Virus record (IMG/VR): IMGVR_UViG_3300032284_000155
Coordinates: 1 to 46,668 of that record
Origin: a virus
Length of the DNA: 46,668 nucleotides
Reading direction: 5' to 3' (one strand)
Shown here: positions 21,927 through 46,668 of the stretch, piece after piece
How the letters are laid out: every line of letters starts with the position of its first letter
Numbering within the stretch: the first letter of the stretch is position 1
The notes under the pieces: model-generated
What the model was told of the DNA's origin: nothing
Database searches by the model: none
The model's input: only the letters and a program-made list of their open reading frames with translations
Translations under genes and position numbers: made by a program

Positions 21927-22001
21927 TGGTTGCAGAGGCCGGGTTCGCACCGACGATCTTCTGGTTATGAGCCAGACGAGATACTGCTTCTCCACTCTGC
22001 T
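21927..22001 (-). tRNA. tRNA-Met(CAT), initiator-like
   Basis: A 75-nt cloverleaf on the minus strand. Acceptor AGCAGAG/CTCTGCA has six pairs with an A1-A72 mismatch; D stem GAGA/TCTC with a shortened loop AGCAGTA; anticodon stem TCTGG/CCAGA with loop CTCATAA (anticodon CAT); variable AGATC; T stem GTCGG/CCGGC with loop TGCGAAC; discriminator A and encoded CCA. Many positions match E. coli initiator tRNA, including the lack of a 1-72 pair. It differs by losing the GG of the D loop and U55, and one of the three anticodon-stem GC pairs. It lies first in the late operon, just before terS. Confidence 0.75.
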
Positions 22002-22210
22002 GGTTTATTGTACAGTGTTTTTATTTAAAAATATATACCCCCCGGGGGTGTTCGATTTAAATTAGTGACGGGGGGTGTTTGCTATGTAATACTTTAGTTA
22101 TATTAGTTTTTAAAAGTGTGGGATCGGTTGTGCAGATTAGTAAGTATGGGGCATGGTCGGAGTCCCAAAACCAATTTGGGGGGTGGGGGTACGCTGCGCC
22201 CGTCCGAATT

Positions 22211-22228
22211 TATGAACAGCTGTTCATA
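22211..22228. promoter_or_regulatory. Perfect 18-bp palindromic operator
   Basis: TATGAACAGCTGTTCATA, fully self-complementary. It lies where transcription from the predicted minus-strand promoter would begin, and shares AACA-NN-TGTTCATA with the dispersed 20-bp elements of the early arm. Confidence 0.7.
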
Positions 22229-22230
22229 TG

Positions 22231-22260
22231 TTTATAAAAAATACTTGTATAAAAGACCAA
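22231..22260 (-). promoter_or_regulatory. Possible late promoter (minus strand)
   Basis: TTGGTC (22255-22260), 18-bp spacer, TATAAA (22231-22236) on the minus strand. It overlaps the early promoter, so only one might be used at a time. It is the best sigma70-like site upstream of the tRNA-terS operon but is far from consensus. Confidence 0.4.
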
Positions 22261-22273
22261 TATCGGTTATACT
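22245..22273 (+). promoter_or_regulatory. Early promoter
   Basis: TTGTAT (22245-22250), 17-bp spacer, TATACT (22268-22273). It would start transcription near 22280, at the inverted repeat CATTAGA/TCTAATG, and drives the first early gene. Confidence 0.75.
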
Positions 22274-22305
22274 GAAAGCTCATTAGATCTTCTAATGAAA
22301 ACAAC

Positions 22306-22325
22306 TTATTAACAACTGTTCATAA
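22306..22325 (+). repeat. 20-bp dispersed palindromic element, copy 1
   Basis: TTATTAACAACTGTTCATAA in the leader of the first early gene, before its own SD (AAAAGGGAA). Confidence 0.75.
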
Positions 22326-22337
22326 AAGGGAAACATC

Positions 22338-22874
22338 ATGTCTACACAAATTGACACACAAACTGGTTATTCATTGGTAGTTAAATCGGTACAAGACGCT
22401 ATAAAATCGGATGTAACATCCGAACACAAATGGGTATCATGCTCTAAGAATGTCGTTTCATTCTTCGGTACTGAAACCGCATTGGAAGGGGTTAAAGCCC
22501 AATTTATTGCGGACGCTATTTTGCCCGCCATTGATAAGCGCCATGCGCAAGCGCTTGCAAGCGAGTTACCACGCAAGGGTTCAAAAGAGTATAACGAGTT
22601 AACTGACTCTGAAAAGACTTTATGGGAAGATAAAAACCAAGCGAAAAAAGACGCTCGCTCTACTTGCAACACTTACTTCAATCGGGTTTTGTCTTATGCT
22701 TTCCCAAAAGTAAAAGAGGAAAACGCAACAACTGCAACCAATGAAACAAAAGAATTGGAAATGCTTAACGCATTAATCAAGAGACTTGAAAAAGCCGAGT
22801 CTCGCACTTACTCGATCACGGCAGTTATGGCATCATTACTTCAAGCACGAATCGACATGGCAAAACAAGTATAA
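22338..22874 (+). CDS. First early protein, unknown, own transcription unit
   Basis: A 178-residue protein, not recognised. It appears alpha-helical, with a basic middle (SELPRKGSKEYNELTDSEKTLWEDKNQAKKDARSTCNTYFNRVLSYAFPKVKEE) and a C-terminal coiled coil (ELEMLNALIKRLEKAESRTYSITAVMASLLQARIDMAK). It has its own promoter, a palindromic element in the leader and a strong terminator 18 bases after the stop. That arrangement suits an abundant immediate-early product, perhaps a host-takeover or regulatory factor; no DNA-binding motif is obvious. Confidence 0.8.
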   Translation: MSTQIDTQTGYSLVVKSVQDAIKSDVTSEHKWVSCSKNVVSFFGTETALEGVKAQFIADAILPAIDKRHAQALASELPRKGSKEYNELTDSEKTLWEDKNQAKKDARSTCNTYFNRVLSYAFPKVKEENATTATNETKELEMLNALIKRLEKAESRTYSITAVMASLLQARIDMAKQV

Positions 22875-22891
22875 ACGAAACTGCTCAAACT

Positions 22892-22915
22892 AAGCCCACT
22901 TCGGTGGGCTTTTTC
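22892..22915 (+). terminator. Rho-independent terminator of the first early gene
   Basis: AGCCCAC-TTCG-GTGGGCT hairpin (22893-22910) followed by TTTTC, 18 bases after the stop. Confidence 0.9.
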
Positions 22916-22982
22916 TTCGTCTTAAATTTTGTGTCTCAATCATTTCGTGATAGTTACGCATAGTTGATGATGATGCACAAAC

Positions 22983-23002
22983 TTATTAACAGGTGTTAAT
23001 AA
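22983..23002 (+). repeat. 20-bp dispersed palindromic element, copy 2 (perfect)
   Basis: TTATTAACAGGTGTTAATAA, perfect apart from the central two bases, at the left edge of the GTTCC repeat cluster. An ATG follows directly but opens only 17 codons. Confidence 0.75.
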
Positions 23003-23302
23003 ATGTTCCGCTTGTTCCGCAATGTTCCAGTTGACTGGAACACGGCAAGTCATTGATTTTAAAGGAGAAATTGACCTTTTTTTATAAATGTTCCAATGTT
23101 CCATATATATATATATCTTACCTGAGTCTGTAACTACTTTACAAAGTTAAGTGGTGGAGATTCTCAGATCTCAAGTGGCTTTGGTAAGGTTGTTATATCA
23201 CTGGAACATTGGAACAGGGCGACATTGAAGCGTGTAACATTATGATTTCAAATGACTTTTTGCCATTTTGCGCACTTAGAACATTGGAACAAATCTTGGA
23301 AC
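22983..23302. other. Repeat-rich stretch, candidate replication origin
   Basis: Between 22875 and 23337 I see no supported gene. Ten GTTCC/GGAAC pentamers occur at 23005, 23014, 23024, 23037, 23090, 23098, 23203, 23211, 23286 and 23298. They include the 18-bp dyad GTTCCAGT-TG-ACTGGAAC (23024-23041), a 15-bp inverted pair TGTTCCAATGTTCCA (23089-23103) and TGGAACATTGGAACA (23202-23216), and a third GAACATTGGAACA (23279-23291). An alternating TATATA tract (23103-23116) sits between. Iterons plus an AT tract recall replication origins; a protein operator array is the alternative. Confidence 0.45.
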
Positions 23303-23337
23303 ACGAATCACTTAACAAAGTAAAAAGGAGAGTAATC

Positions 23338-23544
23338 ATGTCAAAAGCATTTTGTAGGTGTTGTGGCGACGACATTGCCCAAAAGCGTTGGGCACTTGGA
23401 TTCAAGTTCTGTATGCCATGCGGTGAGGAGTTAGCCAAAAAGCGTAAGCACACCATCGTGCCTATGCACAAGTCGAATTACATAGTTGTAACCGATCTCA
23501 ATTTATTAACAGGTGTTAACACAAAAGGAGGGTTAGTCAAATGA
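23338..23544 (+). CDS. Zinc-ribbon mini-protein
   Basis: A 68-residue protein: MSKAFCRCCGDDIAQKRWALGFKFCMPCGEELAKKRKH. Two CxxC pairs (about residues 6-9 and 25-28) form a probable zinc ribbon. The start is chosen at the ATG preceded by AAAGGAGAG; the frame is open further upstream but lies in the repeat region. Near its end the dispersed palindrome (23503-23522) is read as LLTGVN. It overlaps the next gene as ATGA. Function unknown. Confidence 0.75.
   Translation: MSKAFCRCCGDDIAQKRWALGFKFCMPCGEELAKKRKHTIVPMHKSNYIVVTDLNLLTGVNTKGGLVK
23503..23522 (+). repeat. 20-bp dispersed palindromic element, copy 3
   Basis: TTATTAACAGGTGTTAACAC, inside the zinc-ribbon gene, in frame as Leu-Leu-Thr-Gly-Val-Asn. 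A half copy (TATTAACAGGTG) occurs about 70 bases further on, inside the next gene, near 23572-23583. Confidence 0.65.
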
Positions 23545-23741
23545 ATAAACTTCAACTGGTTATATTAACAGGTGCTTGTTGCATCCTAGCTTACATGGGC
23601 TTGCATGGCGACGGATACATTCACAAAGCCATGTGCTTTGCGTGTGGGCTTATTTGGTCTTTCATCTTGCATGAGCTGGTGGATGAATTCAACACACTAA
23701 AAGAAGTTACAGAGAGTAAAGATTCAATCAACATAATTTAA
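23541..23741 (+). CDS. Small two-helix membrane protein
   Basis: A 66-residue protein with two hydrophobic segments (LQLVILTGACCILAYMGL, residues 4-21; AMCFACGLIWSFILHELV, 30-47) separated by HGDGYIHK, and a polar C-terminus. It probably lies in the host inner membrane. The start overlaps the previous stop and follows AAAGGAGGG. No family recognised. Confidence 0.7.
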   Translation: MNKLQLVILTGACCILAYMGLHGDGYIHKAMCFACGLIWSFILHELVDEFNTLKEVTESKDSINII

Positions 23742-23750
23742 GGGTAAACC

Positions 23751-23843
23751 ATGAAAACACAACACATTGATGCATCTTTGGTGCTAGTGGCTCAGATAGT
23801 ATTTGTTATGGTCATATCAGTACTGATGGTACTTGTATGGTGA
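23751..23843 (+). CDS. 30-residue membrane mini-protein
   Basis: MKTQHIDASLVLVAQIVFVM, then VISVLMVLVW: a short polar N-terminus and one long hydrophobic helix. AAGGGTAAACC precedes the ATG, and the TGA overlaps the start of the next gene, as in neighbouring coupled genes. Very short, so the call depends on this context. Confidence 0.5.
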   Translation: MKTQHIDASLVLVAQIVFVMVISVLMVLVW

Positions 23844-24037
23844 TTGACCGCAAAACTGGTAAGCCAGTTGAGTTAGGAGATACCTTAATCCGTCGGGACT
23901 ATAAAGGCTTCAAGCATCGTTATGAAATACTTGACTTTATACCTAGAGGGGTTTGGGTGCGTAAGTTAGAGCGAGACAGGTATGTGTACCTGAGTATGTC
24001 GCTTTCCAGTTTGCAACTGGATGAAGTTATGGTATAG
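23837..24037 (+). CDS. Unknown small early protein
   Basis: A 66-residue protein: MVIDRKTGKPVELGDTLIRRDYKGFKHRYEILDFIPRGVWVRKLERDRYVYLSM. The G..+..GD.+ and Y.+++ pattern suggests a small beta-barrel (SH3-like) fold; this is an impression only. There is no clear SD, so it is probably coupled to the overlapping membrane mini-gene. GTG at 23840 is an alternative start. Confidence 0.6.
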   Translation: MVIDRKTGKPVELGDTLIRRDYKGFKHRYEILDFIPRGVWVRKLERDRYVYLSMSLSSLQLDEVMV

Positions 24038-24041
24038 CAAC

Positions 24042-24061
24042 TTATTAACAGGAGTTCATAA
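24042..24061 (+). repeat. 20-bp dispersed palindromic element, copy 4 (contains SD)
   Basis: TTATTAACAGGAGTTCATAA. Its central AGGAG is the ribosome binding site of the gene starting at 24063; as RNA the arms pair 7 of 8, leaving AGGA in the loop. Confidence 0.75.
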
Positions 24062-24062
24062 A

Positions 24063-24311
24063 ATGGAGATTAAAAAAGTATCAACGGAAAGCGTACGAAG
24101 AATGCCCGATTGGATAGAAGTTCAAGTGCCAGTAACTAAAGCAGAAACCTTATCGGTTGTTGGTAACCCATGCAAAACTTACGATGAAGGATGCTATGTT
24201 TGCGATGCTTGGAAATCTTACAACGACCACGGTTTTATTATGGTTCTATTGGATCGTGCAGAAGTAATTAAAAAAGAAGGTGAACCCGTAATATTTGAGG
24301 AGTATGAATAA
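24063..24311 (+). CDS. Unknown early protein
   Basis: An 82-residue protein: MEIKKVSTESVRRMPDWIEVQVPVTKAETLSVVGNPCKTYDEGCYVCDAWKSYNDHGFIMVLLDRAEVIKKEG. Beta-rich, with three cysteines (C-x6-C-x2-C). Start fixed by the palindrome-embedded AGGAG; the frame extends upstream but without an SD. Overlaps the next gene by one base. No family recognised. Confidence 0.7.
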   Translation: MEIKKVSTESVRRMPDWIEVQVPVTKAETLSVVGNPCKTYDEGCYVCDAWKSYNDHGFIMVLLDRAEVIKKEGEPVIFEEYE

Positions 24312-24547
24312 TGAATTGGAATCACAGAATTGTAGATATGAGCCACGAAAATGCGGGCGACCCTTGGTTTGAGATCAGGGAGGTTGTTTACGAAGACGAT
24401 GGAGAAATCTCAGGGCATACGCACATATGCACAGGAGACGAGACTGTCGAGGGACTTATCTTTTGTCTTGAGCGTATGCTAGCAGATGTTAAGGGTAAGC
24501 GAGTCATCAACGGCGTAACACTAGAGGAGATTACAAATGGAAAATGA
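24311..24547 (+). CDS. Unknown early protein
   Basis: A 78-residue acidic protein: NHRIVDMSHENAGDPWFEIREVVYEDDGEISGHTHICTGDETVEGLIFCLERMLADVKGKRVI. WF.IREV.Y...G...G......G.ET.E.L...L..M..D resembles a small phage family I have seen without a function. The start overlaps the previous stop (TAATG) and its end overlaps the next gene by 11 bases. Confidence 0.7.
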   Translation: MNWNHRIVDMSHENAGDPWFEIREVVYEDDGEISGHTHICTGDETVEGLIFCLERMLADVKGKRVINGVTLEEITNGK

Positions 24548-24752
24548 AATCGAAACAGAATTAGACAGTTTAATTGATAAGCTAGGCGACTTACTCGACA
24601 ACAAGAGTATGTATGCGGCACACATTGCCGTAGCTAAATTCTTTGTGCAAATATCCTACGAGTCAGGCAATGGCAAGGACACATTCTTATCATTGTGCTC
24701 TGACTTATGGGATTCTATGGAGAAGTCATACCAAGCGGAGGTAACACACTAA
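24537..24752 (+). CDS. Unknown small helical early protein
   Basis: A 71-residue acidic helical protein: MENEIETELDSLIDKLGDLLDNKSMYAAHIAVAKFFVQISYESGNGKDTFLSLCSDLWDSMEKSYQAEVTH. GAGGAG lies 7-12 bases upstream. Stop and next start overlap (TAATG). No family recognised. Confidence 0.7.
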   Translation: MENEIETELDSLIDKLGDLLDNKSMYAAHIAVAKFFVQISYESGNGKDTFLSLCSDLWDSMEKSYQAEVTH

Positions 24753-24937
24753 TGGAGATTCAGTTCACAATGACACAACAGGAGATCGACGCATTGAATG
24801 ATGTGGTTGATTATGTTTTGCTTGATGCAAGGGACAATCAGTTTTATCATGCACAGGCGAGAATACTACACAAATGGATAATGAAAGGAGGGATTCAGAA
24901 TGATACCGAGCGAACAACTGAGCGAGAGAGATCTTAA
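24752..24937 (+). CDS. Unknown small early protein
   Basis: A 61-residue protein: MEIQFTMTQQEIDALNDVVDYVLLDARDNQFYHAQARILHKWIMKGGIQND, ending in a charged tail. The start is the ATG overlapping the previous stop (GGAGG 10 bases upstream). The helical Q.EI.AL.DVV.Y.L.DA....+..A..IL.K+ pattern is typical of short phage proteins with no known role. Confidence 0.65.
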   Translation: MEIQFTMTQQEIDALNDVVDYVLLDARDNQFYHAQARILHKWIMKGGIQNDTERTTERERS

Positions 24938-25013
24938 AGACATTCGCAACAAACTAATCGTAACCATCGTACTGATGGTTTTTTGCTATTTATTAACAGG
25001 AGTTCATAAATGA
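24900..25013 (+). CDS. 37-residue membrane mini-protein with strong SD
   Basis: MIPSEQLSERDLKDIRNKLI, then VTIVLMVFCYLLTGVHK: a charged N-terminal helix and a hydrophobic C-terminal segment. AAAGGAGGG six bases before the ATG is one of the best ribosome sites in the early arm, which argues for real expression. It overlaps the previous gene in another frame. Its last codons are the dispersed palindrome (LLTGVHK), and its stop overlaps the next ATG. Confidence 0.65.
   Translation: MIPSEQLSERDLKDIRNKLIVTIVLMVFCYLLTGVHK
24990..25009 (+). repeat. 20-bp dispersed palindromic element, copy 5 (contains SD)
   Basis: TTATTAACAGGAGTTCATAA, identical to copy 4. It forms the C-terminal codons of the 37-residue gene and the AGGAG of the gene at 25010. 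Confidence 0.8.
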
Positions 25014-25918
25014 TATACAAGGGAAACATACCAACAAGCTATGCATACTACAAGGAGTTGTACGAAAGCATCAAGCCCATACGAGGACGCCCTGATTGTA
25101 GACCAGTCAATAATCGCAGAGAGACATGGAAAACTATCATAGAGAAAGATCTTGGCAATGGCAAGAAATCGTATGCCATGAAATTCCATAACACCGAGTG
25201 CGTTGAGTATTTCGCCAATGGCGATATTACTTTGCGTGTTGGCAGTTGGGAGACACCACTAACCGCTGAGTTCATTCATATGCATAGTCCGTTTCGTTGT
25301 TGGAAACAGTACAACAAAGTTTGGGTTAAGTTTGTGGATAGCTCGGAGAATCACAAATATGGTGTTTCATACCCCATCCATCGTGAGTTGAAACTAACAT
25401 ATGAAGGCGAGTGGCAAGTCGGTGCATCAAGCGGACATATGTTCAAACCCGTAGGTAATGTACCTATCATAAAACGAATTGTAGATCGTGCGAAGGCAAA
25501 AGCAGCACGAGAGCCTGTAAAACCATTTTTAGAATTTGCTAAATCTTTTCTCACCATGTCGGATGGTTGGTTGATGCATGAAACTAAAAAGCAAGTGATC
25601 GGGTTCAATGAAGAAAATGGGTTCGATTGGGTGCGTCTAAGCGACATGGAGAAATACGAAATGATGAAGGGTGATCCAGAAGGGTATTTAAAGCTAATGA
25701 TAAACATGTTGCGGAATGAAACACCATCAAGGCGATATATTGCTGAGACTAAAAAAGTTAAGCATGGGTCATTTGAGTATGACGAACATTACTACGATGA
25801 GCAACATTCGTACAAAAGGCTTCATGCACTTGCCTACAGAGCGGTGGAGAGTTCGGTGGATATTTATACTGTAAAGGAGGTGGCACTAAATAGCAAAGCA
25901 ATGACAAATATCGTTTAA
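25010..25918 (+). CDS. Unknown early protein, 302 residues
   Basis: Not recognised by motif. It starts MIYKGNIPTSYAYYKELYESIKPIRGRPDCRPVNNRR, with KKSYAMKFHNTECVEYFANGDITLRVGSWETPLTAEFIHMHSP (residues 53-95), a beta-rich part that could bind or mark a short peptide or nucleic acid. A helical middle (IKRIVDRAKAKAAREPVKPFLEFAKSFLTM) follows, and a C-terminal half with many Tyr, Glu and Lys. From memory, proteins with Y.MKFH.T.V......G.I.L...GW.T..T occur in other aquatic phages. It precedes the AAA/VWA cassette but is separated from it by a promoter. Confidence 0.7.
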   Translation: MIYKGNIPTSYAYYKELYESIKPIRGRPDCRPVNNRRETWKTIIEKDLGNGKKSYAMKFHNTECVEYFANGDITLRVGSWETPLTAEFIHMHSPFRCWKQYNKVWVKFVDSSENHKYGVSYPIHRELKLTYEGEWQVGASSGHMFKPVGNVPIIKRIVDRAKAKAAREPVKPFLEFAKSFLTMSDGWLMHETKKQVIGFNEENGFDWVRLSDMEKYEMMKGDPEGYLKLMINMLRNETPSRRYIAETKKVKHGSFEYDEHYYDEQHSYKRLHALAYRAVESSVDIYTVKEVALNSKAMTNIV

Positions 25919-25950
25919 GTGTGAGTGCGAAAAAATCAAGTTCAAAAAGC

Positions 25951-25979
25951 TTGACAAGGGTCTACAGTTCTGTTATAAT
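25951..25979 (+). promoter_or_regulatory. Perfect consensus sigma70 promoter for the AAA/VWA cassette
   Basis: TTGACA (25951-25956), 17-bp spacer, TATAAT (25974-25979). TATAACAGTTGTAGA (25983-25997) at the predicted start resembles the palindromic elements in reverse, suggesting an operator over +1. Confidence 0.9.
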
Positions 25980-26016
25980 ATGTATAACAGTTGTAGAAAA
26001 AGTTAGTTTTGTGTAA

Positions 26017-26036
26017 GTATTAACAACTGTTCATAA
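26017..26036 (+). repeat. 20-bp dispersed palindromic element, copy 6
   Basis: GTATTAACAACTGTTCATAA (first base differs from consensus) in the leader between the consensus promoter and the AAA ATPase gene, before its own SD AAAAGGAAAA. Confidence 0.7.
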
Positions 26037-26049
26037 AAAGGAAAATGAA

Positions 26050-27138
26050 ATGAGTGCAATTAATTTTGGTAGTTCAGTATCGTTGAAAGAGTTCGCTCTT
26101 GGTATCGGTACAGTCGGTGAGAATGTAACTGTTATCGGACAGGGTGAACCTGGAATTGGTAAGAGTGCCATGCTGAAAGTTCTTTCTAAGCAATATCCCA
26201 ATTACGAGATAGCGTACATTGACTGTACCTTACTTGATCTTGGTGACTTTGCTTTGCCCTACACCGAGATGAATAATGACATGAAGGTAACTAAGTTTGC
26301 CCCCAATGCTAGGTTCAAGATGCACACAGGCAAACCAGTTATTGTTATGCTTGACGAGATTGGCAAGGCAATGAAGGCAGTTAAGAATGTGCTATTGACT
26401 CTCATGCTAGAGCATAGGATTGGTGATGACTATTTACCAGTTGGTAAGAATGGTGAGAAATCAATTGTGTTTGGTACAACTAATCAATTGACAGATGGGG
26501 TAGGCGATATGCTCGAAGCCCATGCGAGAAATCGTGTGTGCTTTGTGACTGTGCGTAAGCCTGATGCAGACGAGTGGATTGAGTGGGCAATTGCGAACGA
26601 CATTGCGCCCGAAGTTATTGCGTGGGTGAAGCAGTTCCCTCATGCCTTGGCTAGTTATATGGATGCAAGTCAGCGTGATAACCCCTATATCTTTAATCCA
26701 CAGCGTGCTGGTATGGGTGCGGTGGTTACACCAAGAAGTTTAGAGAAGGCTAGTTACATTGCGAAGCGAAGGGAAGCGTTGGGTGATGCGCTTACTATTA
26801 GTATGCTAACAGGTACTATCGGTGAGAGTGCATCAAGAGATATGCAAGCGTTCTTTACTGTGGTGGACAAGTTGCCAACATGGGATGCGATCATGGCTAA
26901 TCCGTTGAGTGCGAAGATGCCAACCGATGCAGTCGCTAAATGCATCTTGGTGTTTAGTGCAATCACTAGGGTTGAGAAGGAGACACTAGGTAAGTGGATG
27001 GCATATGTCCAACGCATGGACAAAGAATGGCAAGCGTTGTTTGCTACGAGTGTGATGAAGTCACCAGTTAAACAAGCCTTTTGTGTAATGCACAAAGACT
27101 TCAAAGATTGGGCATTGGCTAATCAATGGTTGTTTTAA
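26050..27138 (+). CDS. MoxR/CobS-type AAA+ ATPase
   Basis: A 362-residue AAA+ protein: Walker A GEPGIGKS (residues 32-39), Walker B VIVMLDEIGK (97-106), sensor 1 FGTTNQ (141-146) and an arginine-finger-like region EAHARNRV (156-163). PRSLEKASYIAKRR around residue 230 would supply sensor 2. The order matches MoxR-family ATPases, which usually work with a VWA protein to remodel or load partner complexes; the next gene is a VWA protein. Its own consensus promoter and operator-like element indicate controlled, strong early expression. Confidence 0.85.
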   Translation: MSAINFGSSVSLKEFALGIGTVGENVTVIGQGEPGIGKSAMLKVLSKQYPNYEIAYIDCTLLDLGDFALPYTEMNNDMKVTKFAPNARFKMHTGKPVIVMLDEIGKAMKAVKNVLLTLMLEHRIGDDYLPVGKNGEKSIVFGTTNQLTDGVGDMLEAHARNRVCFVTVRKPDADEWIEWAIANDIAPEVIAWVKQFPHALASYMDASQRDNPYIFNPQRAGMGAVVTPRSLEKASYIAKRREALGDALTISMLTGTIGESASRDMQAFFTVVDKLPTWDAIMANPLSAKMPTDAVAKCILVFSAITRVEKETLGKWMAYVQRMDKEWQALFATSVMKSPVKQAFCVMHKDFKDWALANQWLF

Positions 27139-27139
27139 T

Positions 27140-27159
27140 TTATTAACAGGAGTTCATAA
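27140..27159 (+). repeat. 20-bp dispersed palindromic element, copy 7 (contains SD)
   Basis: TTATTAACAGGAGTTCATAA exactly between the AAA stop and the VWA start; AGGAG is the VWA ribosome site. Confidence 0.8.
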
Positions 27160-27160
27160 A

Positions 27161-28366
27161 ATGAGTAATTTAACTGCGGAACAGAGAATACAAAAGGCAC
27201 ATGTTGCCTTGATGAAAGACCCTAAGTATTGCTTGTACTCAGGTATCTTTATGGTCGGTAAGACTGAGGTCGATGAGAAGATGCCGACTGCGGGTACGGA
27301 TGGTCGCAACACATACTATGGTCGTGCGTTCGTGGACAAGATAGACGACAGACAACTGAGAGCGGTTATCTTGCATGAGAATCTACATAAGGCTTTCAGA
27401 CATATAACCACATGGAAACATCTTTATGATGAGCATCACCAGTTGGCGAACATGGCTTGTGACTTTGTGATTAACTTGATGATACATGACTCAGATCCTA
27501 GCGGTACATTCGTGAAGTTACCCGATAGTGCGTTGCTTGATGAGAAGTATCGTGGATGGGACTCAGGTTCAGTATTCAAAGACTTGATGCAACAAGCACA
27601 AGGTGGGTCGGTTCATGTAAAGAGTGTAGGTAATCCACAAGGCAGAGACATACCAGTAAGAGAAGGGTCGGACTTTGGAGGGTTCGATGAGCATGACTGG
27701 GAAGGTGGTCAGGAGATGGGTAACGAGGAGAAGGAACAACTTGCAAGAGACATTGACCAAGCATTGAGACAGGGTGCGATACTTGCGGGCAAGATGAAAG
27801 GCAATGTACCAAGAGAGGTAACCGATGCGCTTGAAGCGAAGATTGATTGGAAAGAAGCTATGCGTGAGTTCTTTACATCGTTCTGTATGGACAAGGACGA
27901 GAGTACATGGCGCAAACCTAATCGTAGGTGGATAGATCAAGATGTGTATATGCCATCCTTGATCGGTGAATCAGTCGGTCGCATTGTGGTGGGTATTGAT
28001 ATGTCGGGTTCGATTGGTACTGAGGAGGTCGGGCAGTTCTTAGGTGAGGTGCGTAAGATCTGCGAGACAGTTAAGCCCGAAGGTATTGATGTTCTCTACT
28101 GGGATACTGAGGTATGTTCGCATGAGAAGTACGAGCAAGATCAATTGGATAACTTGTTGTCCAGTACTAAGCCCAAGGGTGGGGGCGGTACAGATGTTGT
28201 ATGTGTGCCTGAGTACATGAGAGATCATAAGATCAAGGCAGAGTGTGCAGTCATCTTAACCGATGGCTATTTAGGTGGAGACTGGGGTAAGTGGGATTGT
28301 CCAACATTGTGGGGTATCACTAGTGATATTACTTCACCAATTGGCAAGACTGTTCGCATCCAGTAA
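27161..28366 (+). CDS. VWA-domain protein with N-terminal metallopeptidase-like domain
   Basis: A 401-residue protein with two regions. The N-terminal part carries HENLHKAFRH (residues 72-81), an HExxH zinc motif with a third histidine, and ACDFVINLMI further on, as in the putative metallopeptidase domain fused to VWA (DUF2201-like). The C-terminal VWA domain has an intact MIDAS: DMSGS (280-284), GGGGTD (340-345) and ILTDG (365-369). Partnered with the preceding MoxR ATPase, it recalls CbbQ/CbbO, RavA/ViaA and CobS/CobT pairs, where the VWA protein links the ATPase to its target. The phage target is unknown. Confidence 0.85.
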   Translation: MSNLTAEQRIQKAHVALMKDPKYCLYSGIFMVGKTEVDEKMPTAGTDGRNTYYGRAFVDKIDDRQLRAVILHENLHKAFRHITTWKHLYDEHHQLANMACDFVINLMIHDSDPSGTFVKLPDSALLDEKYRGWDSGSVFKDLMQQAQGGSVHVKSVGNPQGRDIPVREGSDFGGFDEHDWEGGQEMGNEEKEQLARDIDQALRQGAILAGKMKGNVPREVTDALEAKIDWKEAMREFFTSFCMDKDESTWRKPNRRWIDQDVYMPSLIGESVGRIVVGIDMSGSIGTEEVGQFLGEVRKICETVKPEGIDVLYWDTEVCSHEKYEQDQLDNLLSSTKPKGGGGTDVVCVPEYMRDHKIKAECAVILTDGYLGGDWGKWDCPTLWGITSDITSPIGKTVRIQ

Positions 28367-28367
28367 T

Positions 28368-28387
28368 TTATTAACAGGTGTTCATAA
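28368..28387 (+). repeat. 20-bp dispersed palindromic element, copy 8
   Basis: TTATTAACAGGTGTTCATAA, starting 1 base after the VWA stop codon; a separate SD (AAAAAGGAGAG) follows for the next gene. Confidence 0.8.
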
Positions 28388-28401
28388 AAAGGAGAGTGCA
28401 T

Positions 28402-29235
28402 ATGATTCAGAACAGTGCAATGTTAGTTGACCTCAACATCAGCGTGTGGACAGGTCGCAAGATGGATAAGAAAGTATCCGAAGAGATTGATGCGAGCAAG
28501 GGTACGAAGTCGAGAGCTGGAAACTATCATAAAAAGTTATTGGCAGGTACTGATCGACTCGATGATTTGCAAAAGCTTGTTACCAAAATTCGGATTTGGC
28601 ATTACGAGCAGACCTTGCCTTGGTCGGATGGTGGGTCTCGCTTGTTACCAATGAAAAACTTCTTTGACTATAAAGCTACGCTAGGTGATTACGAGCGCCA
28701 GTTGAACAATGAGGTACAGATGTTTCTACAAGAGTACGACACGCTAGTAACCGCCGCAGCCTTTCAGTTGGGTGATTTGTTTGATGCAGATGAATATCCT
28801 ACTGCGGAGAGCTTGCAGGGTAAGTTTAAGTTTAAGTATGTATTCTTACCAGTACCCGATGTAGGTGACTTTAGGATTGAGGTCAATGAAGTACACAAGC
28901 AAGAGCTACAAGCACAGTACGAAGAGTTCTTCAATAAGAAGTTATCGGATGCTATGCAAGATGCATGGGACAGACTGCATGATTGTCTCAAGCGTATGAG
29001 CGAGAAACTTGCGGGCGAAGATAAGCAGATCTTCAGAGACTCATTGGTCAACAATGCATCAGACTTATGCGAGTTGTTAACTAAGCTGAATGTAACAGGC
29101 GACGCTAAGTTGGAAGTTGCTAGAAAGAAGTTGGAGAGTGCGCTTGTAGGTGTGACGGCTAACGAGCTACGCAAAGACGACGATCTTAGACTGGATGTGA
29201 AAGCGAAGGTCGATGAGATTCTAGGGATGTTTTGA
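28402..29235 (+). CDS. Coiled-coil partner of the AAA/VWA pair (DUF3150-like)
   Basis: A 277-residue helical protein: MIQNSAMLVDLNISVWTGRKMDKKVSEEIDASKGTKSRAGNYHKKLLAG, then WSDGGSRLLPMKNFFDYKATLGDYERQLNNEVQMFLQEYDTLV, FKYVFLPVPD, and helical repeats to the end. The LV.L.IS.W.GRK.DK.V..E opening, a WSD.G.RLLP segment and linkage to MoxR and VWA genes match what I remember of DUF3150 proteins in phages and integrative elements. Start at the ATG after AAAAAGGAGAGTGCAT; a longer frame has no SD. Its TGA overlaps the next ATG. Confidence 0.7.
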   Translation: MIQNSAMLVDLNISVWTGRKMDKKVSEEIDASKGTKSRAGNYHKKLLAGTDRLDDLQKLVTKIRIWHYEQTLPWSDGGSRLLPMKNFFDYKATLGDYERQLNNEVQMFLQEYDTLVTAAAFQLGDLFDADEYPTAESLQGKFKFKYVFLPVPDVGDFRIEVNEVHKQELQAQYEEFFNKKLSDAMQDAWDRLHDCLKRMSEKLAGEDKQIFRDSLVNNASDLCELLTKLNVTGDAKLEVARKKLESALVGVTANELRKDDDLRLDVKAKVDEILGMF

Positions 29236-29504
29236 TGAGTGACATCAAACAAGGCGACTGGGTAATTACAAAAGGTAAGCGAATTGCTTATGTAGCATTT
29301 GAAGATCCTTATGGGTTCGAAAAAAACAATCCTCATGTGTATTTGTATTTTTGGGGTGATGAGTTTCATTGCCGTAGTTACAAAACCAGTTCGTTAACCA
29401 AGGTAGACCCATCAGTTGCCAAAATATTAACAGATGTTCATAAAGAGCGAATTAAAGCTCGCACTTCTTCATTTTTAAAAACAGGGAGATATTTAGATGA
29501 TTAA
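29235..29504 (+). CDS. Unknown small early protein
   Basis: An 89-residue protein: MSDIKQGDWVITKGKRIAYVAFEDPYGFEKNNPHVYLYFWGDEFHCRSYKTSSLTKVDP. The start QGDWVI..GKR.AYV is typical of small SH3-like barrels, but no family is named. The last third contains the palindromic element read in frame (ILTDVHKERIK). Start overlaps the previous stop; the end overlaps the next gene by 8 bases. Confidence 0.65.
   Translation: MSDIKQGDWVITKGKRIAYVAFEDPYGFEKNNPHVYLYFWGDEFHCRSYKTSSLTKVDPSVAKILTDVHKERIKARTSSFLKTGRYLDD
29424..29443 (+). repeat. 20-bp dispersed palindromic element, copy 9
   Basis: AATATTAACAGATGTTCATA-A type copy (consensus differs at the first base and the centre), inside a coding region in the same frame as the other coding copies. 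Confidence 0.6.
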
Positions 29505-36631: not shown

Positions 36632-36648
36632 TTCGAGATGCATAAAAT
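36621..36648 (+). promoter_or_regulatory. Sigma70-type promoter for the helicase gene
   Basis: TTGACA (36621-36626), 16-bp spacer, TAAAAT (36643-36648). Transcription would start near 36655, leaving a leader of about 200 nt. Confidence 0.75.
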
Positions 36649-36654
36649 GAAATC

Positions 36655-36853
36655 GTAATCTCTCTAAAAGCCCGTGTGTAAGGTGTGGGTGATGCGGGCG
36701 GGTTTTGGGTTATCCTAATTAACTACACCAGTTGACGCATCTCTTTTTCGTTCCTTTTGGGGGGTGTGAGTTAGCCGATTAACTACCGTTAGTAGTTTCA
36801 TTCGACCGATTGTGGACAGACCACTTTCGGTCTATTAGTCATTTGGAGATAGA
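36655..36853 (+). promoter_or_regulatory. Structured 200-nt leader upstream of the helicase gene
   Basis: No gene is seen. Three hairpins: GCCCG/CGGGC (36670-36699, 20-nt loop), AACTAC-CGTTA-GTAGTT (36781-36797), and a nested stem GACCGA-TT-GTGG-ACAGA-CCAC-TT-TCGGTC (36804-36832) with a symmetric U-U internal loop. ATTAACTAC occurs twice (36718, 36779). It could be a small RNA or a translational control element. Confidence 0.5.
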
Positions 36854-38401
36854 GTGCAAATAATAGACAACAAAGCGTTACTGATAAAAGTACGTGAGCC
36901 AAATCGCATAACTGCGGTCATACCTAAATCAAAAATGGTAGGGCAGAATGAGGTGCTTGTTAAGTGGGGGCTAGAAGAAGCGCAAGTTTTAAAGAACATG
37001 CGTATTAAAAATGTGCCGTCCCCAATCGAGATGGACTATGAATGGACAGGCCTCTACAAACCATTCGACCATCAGAAGACAACAGCGTCGTTCCTCACGT
37101 TGCATCGTCGTGCATTTTGTTTTAACGAGCAAGGCACAGGCAAAACTTCATCAGTCATTTGGGCAGTTGACTACTTGATGAACAAGGGCATCATCAAACG
37201 AGTCTTAGTTCTTTGCCCACTTTCAATCATGCAATCCGCATGGGAGGCTGATCTATTCAAGTTTGCTATGCATCGCACATGCGCCATAGCTCATAGCTAC
37301 TCAAAAGAAAAACGCATTGAGGCAGTTCGTAGTGATGCAGATTTTGTTATCTGCAATTACGATGGTTTGGAAATAATCAAAGACGAAATACAAAATCAAC
37401 AGTTTGACATGATTGTTATTGACGAAGCCAACGCATATAAGAACGTAGCTACAAGAAGATGGAAGACACTCAACTCAATCATCAAGCCCGACATGTGGGT
37501 GTGGATGCTGACAGGAACTCCTGCATCTCAGTCGCCTACTGATGCGTATGGATTAGCAAAAATAATTAACCCATCTGGAGTACCTAAATTCTTTGGTGCG
37601 TTTCGTGACATGGTGATGCAAAAAATCACTACATTCAAATGGATTCCAAAACATACATCCGAAAAAACTTTGCACGACGTGTTGCAACCAGCGATACGGT
37701 TCACGAAAGAAGAATGTCTTGACTTGCCTGACATGACCTACGTGACTAGGAATGTGCCTTTAACTAGCCAACAATTCAAGTATTACGAAGCCATACGTAA
37801 ACATATGACGGCAGTTGCTGCGGGAGAAGAAATAACAACTGTTAATGCGGCAGCAAACTTAAATAAGTTATTGCAACTATCATGCGGGGCAGTCTATAGC
37901 GATAGCGGTGAAGTCATTGCGTTTGACGCAAAAAATCGCATGAGTGCGCTTGTCGAAGTTATTGAAGAAGCAAGCCACAAAGTAATTGTGTTTGCGCCAT
38001 TCAGACATGCCATTGAAATTATTTCCGAGGAGTTAACCAAACTCCAAATCAACAACGAGAAAATACATGGAGGTATATCAGCAACTAAACGAACAGAAAT
38101 ATTTGCCAAATTTCAAACTGAAAAAAATCCACAGGTACTTGTGATACAACCACAAGCCGCCGCTCATGGAGTCACACTACATGCCGCCAACGTAGTTGTA
38201 TGGTGGGGGCCAATCACATCAATAGAGACTTACCTACAAGCTAATGCACGTGTGCATAGGGCGGGTCAACGTAACCCATGTACTGTCGTTCACCTAGAGG
38301 GAAGTCCCGTTGAGAAGAAAGTCTACAAAATGTTATCAGAAAAAGTAGATATTCATACTAGGCTTATAGATTTATATAAAAATATTTTGGTAGACACTTG
38401 A
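36854..38401 (+). CDS. SNF2-type superfamily 2 helicase
   Basis: A 515-residue helicase/translocase. Start is GTG with TTTGGAG upstream. Motif I NEQGTGKTSS (91-100), Ia VLVLCPLSIMQSAW, motif II VIDEANAYK (188-196; DEAN instead of DEAH), motif III MLTGTPASQSPTDAYGL, and C-terminal motifs VIVFAPFRHAIEII, VLVIQPQAAAHGVTLHAANVVVWWGP and the arginine-bearing QANARVHRAGQRNPC. Such phage helicases may aid replication or recombination. The nearby SSB-like and primase genes fit. Confidence 0.9.
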   Translation: MQIIDNKALLIKVREPNRITAVIPKSKMVGQNEVLVKWGLEEAQVLKNMRIKNVPSPIEMDYEWTGLYKPFDHQKTTASFLTLHRRAFCFNEQGTGKTSSVIWAVDYLMNKGIIKRVLVLCPLSIMQSAWEADLFKFAMHRTCAIAHSYSKEKRIEAVRSDADFVICNYDGLEIIKDEIQNQQFDMIVIDEANAYKNVATRRWKTLNSIIKPDMWVWMLTGTPASQSPTDAYGLAKIINPSGVPKFFGAFRDMVMQKITTFKWIPKHTSEKTLHDVLQPAIRFTKEECLDLPDMTYVTRNVPLTSQQFKYYEAIRKHMTAVAAGEEITTVNAAANLNKLLQLSCGAVYSDSGEVIAFDAKNRMSALVEVIEEASHKVIVFAPFRHAIEIISEELTKLQINNEKIHGGISATKRTEIFAKFQTEKNPQVLVIQPQAAAHGVTLHAANVVVWWGPITSIETYLQANARVHRAGQRNPCTVVHLEGSPVEKKVYKMLSEKVDIHTRLIDLYKNILVDT

Positions 38402-38426
38402 CAAAGTAAAGTAACGCCTATATATT
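38398..38426 (+). promoter_or_regulatory. Sigma70-type promoter for the SSB-like operon
   Basis: TTGACA (38398-38403, overlapping the helicase stop), 17-bp spacer, TATATT (38421-38426), with AAAAAGGAGAG before the next gene. Confidence 0.85.
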
Positions 38427-38453
38427 TGAGAGACAAACAAAAAGGAGAGTGCA

Positions 38454-38846
38454 ATGAGTGAAGTAGCAGAAGAAGCCACAGTAGAGAGGCTAGCAAAAAT
38501 CTACACCAAGATCAGAGACAAACGCAAGGAACTTGAAAAAGAAGTTGCCGAGCTTAAAGAGAAACAAGACGTCATAGCCAAAGAACTTCTTGAGCTATGC
38601 AAAGAGCAAGGCGTAACCACCATGCGCACTGCTTACGGCACAGTTTCTAAAAGAGTAACCAAGAACTATTGGACGAGTGATTGGGAATCTTTTTTCAAAT
38701 TCATAAAGGAGAACGATGCCTTTTCGTTGATGCAACAACGTATCAATAACACGAACATGGCACAATTTCTTTCTGAAAACCCCGATGTTTTTCCGCCGGG
38801 TCTAAATGCGGATACAAACCAAACCATCGTAATTGTCAAACGCTAG
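38454..38846 (+). CDS. Coiled-coil early protein (Gam/Gp157-like impression)
   Basis: A 130-residue protein: an N-terminal coiled coil (VERLAKIYTKIRDKRKELEKEVAELKEKQDVIAKELLELCKEQG) and a C-terminal domain (TTMRTAYGTVSKRVTKNYWTSDWESFFKFIKENDAFSLMQQRINNTNMAQFLSENPDVFPPGLNADTNQTIVIVKR). The layout recalls phage proteins beside SSB genes, some of which inhibit host nucleases, but no specific family can be named. First gene of the unit with the SSB-like protein. Confidence 0.7.
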   Translation: MSEVAEEATVERLAKIYTKIRDKRKELEKEVAELKEKQDVIAKELLELCKEQGVTTMRTAYGTVSKRVTKNYWTSDWESFFKFIKENDAFSLMQQRINNTNMAQFLSENPDVFPPGLNADTNQTIVIVKR

Positions 38847-38855
38847 GAGTTAAAA

Positions 38856-39752
38856 ATGAGTAACGACGTAATGTTAGATTTGGGTCTACCAAACTATTTA
38901 AAAGAGATCGAGTTAGACGAAACCACCAAAGCCCTTATGGGCGGTGCAACAGGCATGGGCATGAAGCGCATCTCCATTAAAGGAGGTGTGTGGAGGTTGA
39001 TGGCTAACGGCAAAGAAATTTCCAAGAACGAAGACCGTGCAATGAATGTCGTCATCGTAGCCGCCGCACCTAAAGTATCAAGAACTTTTTATCTAAAGAC
39101 TTATTCAGAAGGTAGCGAGCCTACTGCACCTGATTGTTGGTCTGCCGATGGAGAAGTGCCTGATGCTAAGTCTGCTATACCACAAGCCAAGCGTTGCCTT
39201 GACTGCGAGCAGAACGTGAAGGGTTCGGGACAAGGCGATAGCCGTGCCTGTAAATTTAACCAGCGTATTGCCGTCGTGTTAGCCAACGACCTTAAAGGTG
39301 ATGTGTTGCAACTTACATTACCATCTAAATCTATATTCGGTGCGGGAGAGCCTGGGAAGTGGCCTCTGCAAACATATGCAAAGATGTTGGGAAGTAAAGG
39401 TATACCAGTCACGGCCGTAACTACTGAGATGCGTTTTGATACAAATAGTGCAACTCCTGTAATTACATTCAAACCAGTTCGTGTATTGGAAACAAGCGAG
39501 CATCAGATTGCAATTCTTCAAGGCAAGTCACAAGATGCCAAGAACGCAATTACAATGACTGTTGCAGAGGCTGATGGAGTTAAGATTCCAAAGTTAGACG
39601 CACCCAAGTCAGAGCCTAAAGTCGAACCCAAGGTAGAAGTAAAAGCTGAAACCAAAGTTGAAGACGTAGAGCCTACTAAACGTGTTAAGAAGGAAGAAGA
39701 AGCCGCTCCTAAGAAAGACTTATCTAAGATTCTTGAAGAGTGGGATGATTAA
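38856..39752 (+). CDS. Probable single-stranded DNA-binding protein
   Basis: A 298-residue protein. The N-terminal half is beta-rich (GMKRISIKGGVWRLMANGKEI, AMNVVIVAAAPKVSRTFYLKTY) with a Cys cluster (CLDCEQNVKGSGQGDSRACKFNQRIAVVL; four Cys including C97-type DCWSADG) that may bind zinc. A Lys/Glu/Val-rich linker (KSEPKVEPKVEVKAETKVEDVEPTK) ends in an acidic tail LSKILEEWDD. An OB-like core plus flexible acidic C-terminus is the organisation of phage SSBs (T7 gp2.5 type). Position between helicase and primase agrees. Preceded by TAGGAGTTAAAA. Confidence 0.65.
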   Translation: MSNDVMLDLGLPNYLKEIELDETTKALMGGATGMGMKRISIKGGVWRLMANGKEISKNEDRAMNVVIVAAAPKVSRTFYLKTYSEGSEPTAPDCWSADGEVPDAKSAIPQAKRCLDCEQNVKGSGQGDSRACKFNQRIAVVLANDLKGDVLQLTLPSKSIFGAGEPGKWPLQTYAKMLGSKGIPVTAVTTEMRFDTNSATPVITFKPVRVLETSEHQIAILQGKSQDAKNAITMTVAEADGVKIPKLDAPKSEPKVEPKVEVKAETKVEDVEPTKRVKKEEEAAPKKDLSKILEEWDD

Positions 39753-39754
39753 TC

Positions 39755-39988
39755 ATGCCCAACGGTTATTCATTACTTACCGTACAAGAAGTTAGAGAAG
39801 CCAACCAATCTTTATTGGGTGTACAACTAGGCAAGATTTGTATAGAACGGAACATTCCAGTTACAGATGTTGCTGATTTTTTCAAGGTAAGCCGTGTGAC
39901 TGTCTACTCTTGGTTTAGAGGCAAAACAGTCGTATCGGGTAAACACTCTGAAAAAATGCAAAAGCTAATAGCAAAATTATTAGCTTGA
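39755..39988 (+). CDS. Cro-like helix-turn-helix protein
   Basis: A 77-residue protein: LGVQLGKICIERNIPVTDVADFFKVSRVTVYSWFRGKTVVSGKHSEKMQKLIAKLLA. VTDVADFFKVSRVTVYSWFRG is a good HTH_XRE motif with recognition helix SRVTVYSWF. It is a candidate repressor for one of the palindromic sites in this genome. The 3' end forms a 9-bp inverted repeat (39962-39986). Confidence 0.8.
   Translation: MPNGYSLLTVQEVREANQSLLGVQLGKICIERNIPVTDVADFFKVSRVTVYSWFRGKTVVSGKHSEKMQKLIAKLLA
39962..39986. repeat. 9-bp inverted repeat at the end of the HTH gene
   Basis: AAGCTAATA-(7 nt)-TATTAGCTT, spanning the last codons of the HTH gene. No T-tract follows, so an operator or mRNA hairpin is as likely as a weak terminator. 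A second stem GGATG/CATCC (40022-40039) lies in the 88-nt gap before the primase gene. Confidence 0.5.
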
Positions 39989-40076
39989 ACGGTTAGAGGG
40001 GGCTAGGCTAGCTACCGAAAAGGATGCTCCGTCTCATCCCTGCCCAACTCTTTTAAATGACGTAACAAGGACGGAT

Positions 40077-43128: not shown

Positions 43129-43153
43129 CCCCCGCTGGTCGGGGGTTCTTTTT
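43127..43153 (+). terminator. Rho-independent terminator of the early arm
   Basis: AACCCCCG-CTGGT-CGGGGGTT stem-loop (43127-43147) then CTTTTTC. It lies between the converging arms and functions for the plus strand; the minus strand has no T-tract. Confidence 0.9.
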
Positions 43154-46100: not shown

Positions 46101-46668
46101 TATTGAGCACGTGCGATATTGCAGCGTGTGTAATTTCATGGATTACAGTGTGCTCATTTAAACCATATTCGGGATCAAGCGTGATCGTGTTGGTAGTAGG
46201 GTCATAAGAACCAGCTTTACCTTGATACAGTTTTGGGGTTTGAATATTTCCAAGAGTATTTAAGCGCAACTTTTCAGGAGAAAAATCGTTAACAATTTGT
46301 TGCCCATCAACCTTATAGGTTAAAGTTATATATCGTTTTGCGCCGGGGGTATCAGATGAAACTTCTCGCCCATATTGATCCATGTAAACAGATCCACCAA
46401 CAACAGCATCTACTTCATAGCCACCGGGAACATGTGGAAGATTAAATCGAATTACATCCCCCTGCTTAGGTTCTGGTCGGGTGCGAGTTAATTCAAATAT
46501 TTTTTCTCTATCTGTTGCGGGAAGCGCCATCGGCCCTTCTGGGTTTCCAATTACAATTTTTGGATTTAACCCAAGTGCTTTGAATCTACGCAGTACTTGC
46601 TTAATTTCTTTATTGTCAATAGTCTTAATTAAATGGTCAAGAATATTGTTAATCTTGCCTTCTTTAAT
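43153..46668 (-). CDS. Very large polyvalent-type protein with zincin motif, N-terminus outside window
   Basis: The frame is open through the right edge (46 codons before the first in-window ATG at 46530: IKEGKINNILDHLIKTIDNK and on), so the gene is 5'-incomplete; over 1,170 residues are visible. Near 46110-46140 is HEITHAAISHVL, a zinc metallopeptidase HExxH motif with a third His, after LNEHTVI. The middle is helical. The C-terminal half has amphipathic or membrane-like text (LPLMVWPILSGKYGF, LGRVAFTFKNFAWNSAFTIARAFHQAV, YGMAMAFAGVKGLPFYGGASML), resembling the LPD38-type ends of large polyvalent proteins that I know from phages. Such proteins are thought to enter the host with the DNA. Confidence 0.7.
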   Translation of the reverse strand: MKEGKINNILDHLIKTIDNKEIKQVLRRFKALGLNPKIVIGNPEGPMALPATDREKIFELTRTRPEPKQGDVIRFNLPHVPGGYEVDAVVGGSVYMDQYGREVSSDTPGAKRYITLTYKVDGQQIVNDFSPEKLRLNTLGNIQTPKLYQGKAGSYDPTTNTITLDPEYGLNEHTVIHEITHAAISHVLNNRNHPLTKEFLKFFDQIQNQLGAAYGAQDLQEFASELTGNPNFQAVLKTIKAPKSGNLFERIIQSIAEFLGFRKGQSAYEAGLKFIHDAIDVSRDVEATPAEKMFMGMGASVNNAFNAVGKIGKDMPSLAGEYAEKARNTFSNIANKNSPMYAGPSTTKLAFGLLRPDHLNKLYGKELPSIQKLLDALEKRNGTQDMRIKKINDNYKHFMDVFARHKQAMERMNDMAYDARLAEVDVLNPNFKTNPQNASEFAKLRSIYNALPKEVQDVYKTIRKSYEDSINEYEKILLANATPSLAARIKAEFQAKRRVPGYIPFLRRGDFWVEYADPTTGDRAASAFESIRERDKFIKDVLKGAQHKSYQNIQNASFQQGSVPPTSFLGSIMADLQKSGASQEQLNNIYQSYLSLFPAQSLVKQFMKSENVRGMERDIVRGYGDVMIKWARKLADSEYSPQIDKAIDAIGAEASNANKPDTYAAAQNIYDQRGFMHNPTYSGLVNGATTLSYFEYIAGNVSSALVNVTSLPLMVWPILSGKYGFTGATNAMMGASKIAINGMQNNARYKKLYDALMEHGQLEHTIAREVLEGRRQSTHEFTGLKAKLEDTVGIAFTASEKYNRAVTAIAAYDLAKQKGKSDAEAIREAIDTVKDAHTSGMSATAPKWMQHPLGRVAFTFKNFAWNSAFTIARAFHQAVKGETKEVRMAAMRQLVGTYGMAMAFAGVKGLPFYGGASMLANMINTLFGDDDEPFDFNEEMRDLFGEFAYKGAVNYVTNLEISNRVGLATDLLYRDDPRSIADHGLALTVIQQALGPAASYAVNANNAAKMMSEGHTERALEALSPSFLRNAAKGFRYMTDGALTLKGDPIDTDISTYNGLMQMAGFAPADLSTMYEMSSARTQFQKEVLARKTKLLNKYDMARTSGDTELMSDTMEDITGFNEKHPGIRITSETLQKSQAARKANERNMIDGIKYNKKLLPEIREKFSAED

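Follow-up and report, generated by a model that had tools for sequence, protein, structure and literature searches.

Introduction

Motors in which a ring of AAA+ subunits works with a partner carrying a von Willebrand factor A (VWA) domain and its metal-ion-dependent adhesion site (MIDAS) are known from CbbQ-CbbO, RavA-ViaA and Midasin, which serve as mechanistic models. They act on other targets, their likeness to the genes described here was compared by Pfam only, and we know of no DUF3150 partner for any of the three. The CobS-CobT-CobN cobaltochelatase shares the AAA+ plus VWA logic, with CobN as its third subunit. In this study, a cassette of three genes was analysed at positions 25951-29235 of the IMG/VR record IMGVR_UViG_3300032284_000155, which comes from an uncultured phage. 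The window is the whole record of 46,668 bases. The cassette encodes an ATPase, a VWA protein with a putative metallopeptidase domain and without a CobT signature, and a third protein that is, judged by its sequence, a diverged member of the wider DUF3150 family.

The closest described phage relatives are pairs. In phage N4, gp24 and gp25, core genes of the N4-like phages, are an adjacent ATPase and DUF2201 VWA protein as in the window (profile E-values of 1.3e-44 and 1.3e-57). N4 differs in that a profile search of 40 kb detected no DUF3150 and the next gene is annotated as dCTP deaminase. In the accessible part of the N4 gene list, gene 24 is entered as 'Unknown' and gene 25 as 'vWFA domain', and both are middle genes. 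A MoxR/metallopeptidase-vWA pair of jumbo phages likewise joins an AAA+ ATPase to a vWA protein with an N-terminal metallopeptidase domain (PMC7824862). The available part of that description differs in mentioning no third protein and in proposing a role in virion assembly, for which an archaeal virus tail system is also cited. A viral CobST has been proposed to hijack or use the host CobN (PMC8651126). A sequence-only reading of the window had professed no known function for phage versions of the cassette, and the 'Unknown' of N4 gene 24 agrees with it; the published guesses are virion assembly and CobN hijacking.

Outside phages, ORF101-103 of plasmid pCAR1 resemble the trio: genes for an AAA ATPase, a DUF3150 protein and a VWA protein follow one another, the middle one presumably being ORF102. 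The conservation of this block on R478, Rts1, SXT and R391, and so over plasmids and integrative and conjugative elements, was pointed out in 2009 (PMC2642839). Its VWA protein differs in being CobT/NorD-like and longer (604 residues), and the accessible portion of the source does not link phages to the block. The pair in N4-like and jumbo phages and the plasmid block of the trio are thus already known. In the open-access literature searched, we found neither the term 'DUF3150', nor a trio common to phages and plasmids, nor a conserved early promoter linked to it. The explanation favoured here, which we hold tentatively, is that the three genes may encode one early-made AAA+/VWA machine that remodels nucleoprotein complexes in the DNA metabolism of mobile elements.

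Results

Conservation of the three genes in viral relatives

The genes of the cassette and their motifs are as follows.

26050-27138, plus strand: AAA_5-type ATPase of 362 residues, phrog_1297 (Pfam, PHROGs)
26143-26166, plus strand: Walker A motif GEPGIGKS, residues 32-39
26341-26358, plus strand: Walker B motif IVMLDE, residues 98-103
27161-28366, plus strand: DUF2201 protein of 401 residues with putative metallopeptidase and VWA domains, phrog_1314
27374-27403, plus strand: HExxHxxxxH motif HENLHKAFRH, residues 72-81
27449-27463, plus strand: conserved NxxxD motif NMACD, residues 97-101, a possible further metal ligand
27998-28012, plus strand: MIDAS motif DMSGS, residues 280-284
28178-28192, plus strand: MIDAS motif GGGGT, residues 340-344
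28259-28267, plus strand: MIDAS motif TDG, residues 367-369
28402-29235, plus strand: diverged DUF3150 protein of 277 residues, mostly helical, likely starting at the ATG at 28402

The first 22 kb of the window carries terminase, portal and head genes on the minus strand, and after 22 kb the plus strand carries polA, nuclease, helicase and primase genes. The cassette lies in the early part of this plus-strand half. No close isolated phage was found by megablast of window positions 22000-40000 against 50,697 phage records, and the nearest polA among isolated phages is 36.6% identical. The IMG/VR collection was the source of viral relatives: a scan with the third protein found 135, and the best 80 of the 135 make up the set of loci used below.

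All 45 loci whose sequence extends 4 kb or more upstream of DUF3150 had the complete order ATPase-VWA-DUF3150. At least one partner was present in 77 of the 80 loci, and in the other three the DUF3150 gene lies at most 330 bases from the start of the available sequence. The median gap was 34 bases between ATPase and VWA genes (13-696) and 214 between VWA and DUF3150 genes (22-1180); since the gaps are variable, other genes can intervene within the trio. In 21 of the 80 loci all five genes are near full length; over these, distances within the trio correlate at 0.87-0.92, compared with 0.45-0.80 for correlations with the downstream nuclease and polA. Gene order differs among lineages (with A, V and D for the three genes: A-V-D, A-D-V, A..D..V in cyanophage MinM2, and D-A-V on two contigs of metagenome-assembled genomes), yet the genes remain together. 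These results, with the promoter data given below, support the AAA+/VWA pairing, the three-gene unit and the single promoter of the sequence-only reading.

The catalytic residues are also maintained. Alignments of 53, 63 and 80 sequences, which include the window and omit locus L009, show retention of at least 97% for the Walker lysine and acidic residues, for H, E and H in HExxH and for the MIDAS residues. At H81, the fourth histidine-like position, retention is at least 80%. The residues of the ATPase Walker motifs are invariant or nearly so among the relatives.

A conserved early promoter

A single consensus promoter had been claimed ahead of the cassette. It is present with all 12 consensus bases and conserved among the relatives.

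25951-25979, plus strand: sigma-70-type promoter TTGACA-17-TATAAT with TG before the -10 element, 12/12 consensus, 17-base spacer

Two perfect sites (25951 and 30332) were observed in the whole window, against a mean of 0.04 and a largest count of 1 in 300 first-order Markov simulations of it. Among the relatives, the ATPase start and 250 upstream bases are readable in 49 of the 80 loci, with L009 left out. The best site ahead of the ATPase gene in these 49 matches 12/12 in 33, reaches 11/12 or more in 41 and falls below that in 8. No promoter of at least 11/12 was found before the VWA gene (0/61), DUF3150 (0/78) or polA (0/52) in the related viral loci. The sequence flanking the ATPase-gene promoter varies among the relatives although the promoter itself is kept.

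An inverted repeat over the -10 element was considered as an operator and rejected, since it is strong only in the window and its nearest relatives.

25970-25990, no strand: 8-base inverted repeat over the -10 element

The second perfect 12/12 promoter, at 30332-30360, overlaps the mechanical start of open reading frame (ORF) 30340-30648. Therefore, this ORF probably begins further downstream.

The ATPase and the VWA protein

The ATPase scored 27.9 bits with the Pfam model AAA_5 (cut-off 22) and 26.1 with AAA (cut-off 21.2). It reached 14.1 bits with the narrow MoxR model AAA_3 and 14.9 with the bpMoxR model, both under a cut-off of 27. On these matches it belongs to the AAA_5 group, the wider MoxR/CobS/CbbQ/Midasin type. 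The ATPase with intact Walker motifs (GEPGIGKS and MLDE) was read correctly from the sequence, and the name 'MoxR' is loose and too narrow as a label for this protein. Its PHROGs family, phrog_1297, is named 'ATPase', and 412 of the 50,697 phage records match the protein. Among solved structures, its profile found ClpB/ClpC-type chains only (17 sequences).

The VWA protein matched DUF2201_N (PF13203) at E 1.5e-26 (94.0 bits, cut-off 23.2) and the DUF2201 VWA domain (PF09967) at E 3.9e-16 (59.7 bits, cut-off 26.4), and 754 of the phage records match it. The claimed combination of HExxHxxxxH with an intact VWA MIDAS is borne out by HENLHKAFRH, DMSGS, GGGGT and TDG. In the AlphaFold2 model, HExxH (residues 72-76) is placed on a helix at 63-78 and D101 on a helix at 86-111, a predicted arrangement with block means of the predicted local distance difference test (pLDDT) of 75-96 over residues 1-160. 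Residues 270-401 superpose on VWA/I-domains with Z of about 12 and a root-mean-square deviation (rmsd) of about 2.5 over about 130 residues. The fold matches are confined to residues 236-401, outside the HExxH region. By sequence, no solved relative of the protein and no CobT domain (PF06213, PF11775) was found at E up to 1, and NCBIfam gave no match for it or for the ATPase.

Shared ancestry of the N-domains of DUF2201 and CobT was considered with hhalign (probability 18%, E 0.0013 over 57 columns around HExxH), and the result is suggestive and not claimed here. PHROGs (phrog_1314) and various phage records call the DUF2201/VWA family 'HNH endonuclease' despite its HExxH and VWA motifs; N4 gp25 (L098, 11164-12306) is one of the proteins so labelled.

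The third protein

The third protein fell below the curated cut-off of the DUF3150 model PF11348 (18.9 against 24.9 bits, E 0.001). It matched a DUF3150-annotated protein of MinM2 at E 3e-28, and a profile built without the Manganitrophus DUF3150 protein found that protein at E 8.5e-39. A Foldseek search of BFVD gave eight matches at E of 0.001 or less, one named DUF3150; the fold of this viral model was matched at E 5.4e-14 with a template modelling (TM) score of 0.45 at most, which is a weaker tie. The membership proposed above thus rests on the MinM2 and Manganitrophus matches and more weakly on the fold match.

AlphaFold2 predicts a largely helical protein with three strands (mean pLDDT 76.5). 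A 277-residue helical partner was therefore correctly foreseen; its coiled coil was not borne out, and a diverged DUF3150 protein stands in its place. The sequence-only reading had recognised neither the kinship with DUF3150 nor the occurrence of the trio on plasmids. Foldseek found no match in the PDB at E of 0.001 or less. VIA-align returned helical bundles only, over residues 170-277, the best with Z 9.3 and rmsd 3.3 over 91 residues, a score inside the range that the tool warns of for helical proteins. Sequence comparison with solved structures gave one uninformative match (E 0.3), and NCBIfam matched nothing but trigger factor, with 12.7 against 180 bits. The Pfam matches included no VMAP or beta-propeller domain, the kind of third component that marks vWA-MoxR ternary conflict systems, with no search aimed at VMAP. 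Three of the 50,697 phage records match this protein.

Relatives on plasmids and in genomes

The window-type third protein had 44 matches among 72,556 plasmid records, mostly of Burkholderiales. The order ATPase, DUF3150, VWA was present in six of the eight plasmid stretches read for these matches (Simplicispira, Variovorax, B. vietnamiensis, Rhodovastum, B. ambifaria and Cupriavidus); 3.6 kb separates the ATPase and DUF3150 genes on the Simplicispira plasmid. All three genes were found by profile in each of the nine window-type loci among the 21 plasmid and genome loci examined. Window-type profile matches were present in 3 of 399 genomes of one order. PF11348 was above its cut-off in 8 of 398 genomes of one phylum (10 of 398 at E of 0.001 or less) and in none of 14 controls, and the VWA profile matched 12 of the 398. 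The genome distribution is sporadic, as for mobile genes.

The PF11348 genome matches led to a canonical DUF3150 protein in region L133, which by gene content we take to resemble SXT/R391 elements. This protein matches 1168 plasmid records, 978 of them typed as conjugative. The DUF3150 gene of an E. coli IncC plasmid occurs in 91 of 5426 E. coli genomes, and 90 of its 91 places are on plasmids. Partners of the canonical DUF3150 are AAA_5/CbbQ_C ATPases and CobT-like VWA proteins, and HExxH is kept in the five VWA proteins aligned and also in the IncC one. BLAST with the IncC proteins detected both partners in 9 of 11 canonical-type loci, one of them on an IncC plasmid. Plasmid partners are thus of the DUF2201 type in Burkholderiales, and CobS/CobT-like partners occur on pCAR1 and IncC plasmids; ssb-bet-exo genes are often close by. 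Along the IncC plasmid the genes run AAA, unknown, ssb, bet, exo, DUF3150, VWA, and pCAR1 has AAA, DUF3150, VWA. A homologue of ssb, bet, exonuclease or toprim-primase was present near DUF3150 in 12 of the 21 loci and in none of 20 controls; homologues were sought in the stretch fetched for each locus, and L142, whose match is below cut-off, was left out.

Some plasmid loci have features of their own. In the seventh stretch read, from a Paraburkholderia acidisoli plasmid (L168, 6604-7850), the trio ATPase is unannotated and split over two overlapping frames. Three Burkholderiales plasmids (L167, L168, L169) have PRTRC-system genes no further than about 10 kb from the trio, and type IV secretion genes follow in L167 and L168. 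The VWA gene of a Comamonas plasmid is short and adjoins an IS3 transposase.

Discussion

The conserved promoter, joint inheritance, intact ATPase, MIDAS and HExxH motifs and plasmid relatives are the support for the trio. In the machine tentatively favoured above, the trio would be made early in infection by host RNA polymerase, and the AAA_5 protein would form a ring. The VWA protein would dock on the ring and its MIDAS would grip an acidic residue of the target, as in the models for CbbQ-CbbO and Midasin. DUF3150 would be a dedicated third subunit that brings the target or DNA. ATP hydrolysis would remodel a protein complex on the DNA of the mobile element. This complex could be a host roadblock or consist of proteins for replication, recombination or annealing, and the target may also be cut by the zincin-like domain. 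A nucleoprotein target is suggested by the gene neighbourhoods and by what phages and plasmids have in common. The sequence-only reading had supposed a replication or host machine; 'replication machine' fits the gene neighbourhood in this phage and in many plasmids. A more specific version is improbable: the trio would be a protein-removal machine, in which the AAA+ ring pulls stuck proteins off the replicating or recombining DNA of the element, HExxH cuts them and DUF3150 is the adaptor for DNA or target. By analogy, it would be what bacteria and viruses have in place of the pairing of Cdc48/p97 and SPRTN/Wss1.

Several observations weigh against the nucleoprotein remodelling machine. The model of the third protein has a predicted TM score of only 0.51 with no informative PDB fold match. 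The eighth plasmid stretch (Manganitrophus, L095) has a different ATPase and no DUF2201 match. Among the canonical loci, an ATPase was not detected in L136, and L145, which is truncated where its record ends, lacks the VWA gene. No HExxH is seen in the VWA-like ORF of L138. A DUF2201 protein of a Variovorax plasmid (L094, 8938-10224) lacks the HE of HExxH and retains its MIDAS; therefore, proteolytic cutting may not be required everywhere. The context test is partly circular because its queries came mainly from L133, L143, L145 and L146, and without these four the count is 8 of 17; its 20 controls are arbitrary, mostly chromosomal and from six genomes, not from other mobile-element regions. 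Moreover, 3 of the 9 window-subtype loci score in it (L094, L140, L141), and three others adjoin PRTRC genes, two of them also type IV secretion genes. In SXT, deletions of bet, exo, s067, s068 and s070 cut transfer at most 10-fold (PMC2791158), with the match of these genes to the trio not established. DUF3150 was not found by profile in N4 (40 kb), phage G (13 kb) or PhAER-3 (12.8 kb), which have the pair, so the third part is not always required.

That absence from N4, phage G and PhAER-3 would also suit a motor made of the ATPase-VWA pair alone, with DUF3150 as regulator, inhibitor or passenger, and so would the variable gap between VWA and DUF3150 genes noted above. DUF3150, however, remains beside the pair where the gene order differs and with either kind of VWA partner, and its distances follow those of the pair, which makes this doubtful. 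About as doubtful is virion assembly, where the trio would be a chaperone with a peptidase processing structural proteins. It has a published proposal for the jumbo-phage pair in its favour (PMC7824862). Against it, the window trio lies among plus-strand replication genes, apart from the minus-strand structural genes, and N4 gp24 and gp25 are middle genes in the list cited above. Relatives of the trio are also carried by plasmids, which have no virion and make no particles. Assisting mobile DNA is a likelier role for the cassette than constructing virions. A role in cobalamin synthesis, with the pair as a viral CobST adding cobalt together with host CobN, follows the other published proposal (PMC8651126) and is the least probable of all. 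The window VWA protein has none of the CobT matches sought, the four largest ORFs of the window belong to families other than CobN (the remaining ORFs were not searched for it), and DUF3150 rather than CobN is the steady third partner. IncC plasmids carry a related trio in E. coli, which to our knowledge has no de novo corrin pathway. Since plasmids make no virion and E. coli builds no corrin ring, virion assembly and cobalamin synthesis fit the DUF3150 version poorly.

Counter-defence or host takeover is somewhat less improbable than these three, although still unlikely. Here an early machine would dismantle or cut a host defence or regulatory complex, and plasmids would carry the trio for the same reason. 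The early host-type promoter and the protease-like domain are consistent with this, and phages and conjugative plasmids, which carry the trio, are elements that meet defences. On the other side, both the residues and the gene set show good conservation, whereas genes for counter-defence frequently diverge quickly, and on the IncC plasmid read the trio stands among ssb, bet and exo. PADLOC gave no convincing match for five proteins (one at E 0.034), its models covering defence and not counter-defence. Should one motor with DUF3150 be common to phages and conjugative plasmids, its task must be of use to both. That would make virion assembly and B12 synthesis unlikely for this version and would point to DNA metabolism or counter-defence. 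Many phages have related, little understood motors that go under the labels 'CobS/CobT', 'MoxR-VWA' and 'HNH endonuclease'. The question is testable, since the pair is present in the laboratory phage N4 and the trio on pCAR1, which is kept in Pseudomonas putida KT2440.

Dispersed palindromes and other features of the window

A palindromic element ahead of each gene had also been claimed, and sites are indeed found there, starting 30, 18 and 34 bases ahead of the ATGs of the ATPase, VWA and DUF3150-like genes, respectively. In the wider listing of these distances, the seven gene starts were chosen for a nearby palindrome and are not a sample of all genes.

26020-26036, plus strand: dispersed palindrome before the ATPase gene (motif search)
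27143-27159, plus strand: dispersed palindrome before the VWA gene, also holding AGGAG adjoining the ATG
28368-28387, plus strand: dispersed palindrome before the DUF3150-like gene (motif search)

With up to two mismatches, TTAACANNNGTTCATAA gave 16 matches in the window against 0.66 expected. These merge into 11 sites, all within 22.2-31.2 kb (22210-31225), which consist of the palindrome TTAACANNNGTT[C/A]ATAA and near forms; the exact form occurs in 41 of the 80 related loci. Another palindrome, TACTGTC-NN-ACAGTA, occurs 118 times in 19 related loci (within the range L053-L084), and in L058, the locus whose context was read, it precedes the same three genes. The two types point to either a DNA-binding regulator whose site has changed or start-associated elements; they look like stoperators or start-associated sequences with switched specificity. 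A 70-residue helix-turn-helix protein (HTH_23) is encoded at 30973-31185 in the early region and might be the regulator acting on the palindromes. The minus strand at 43153-46530, where the record ends, encodes a PLxRFG/DarB-like protein of 1125 residues.

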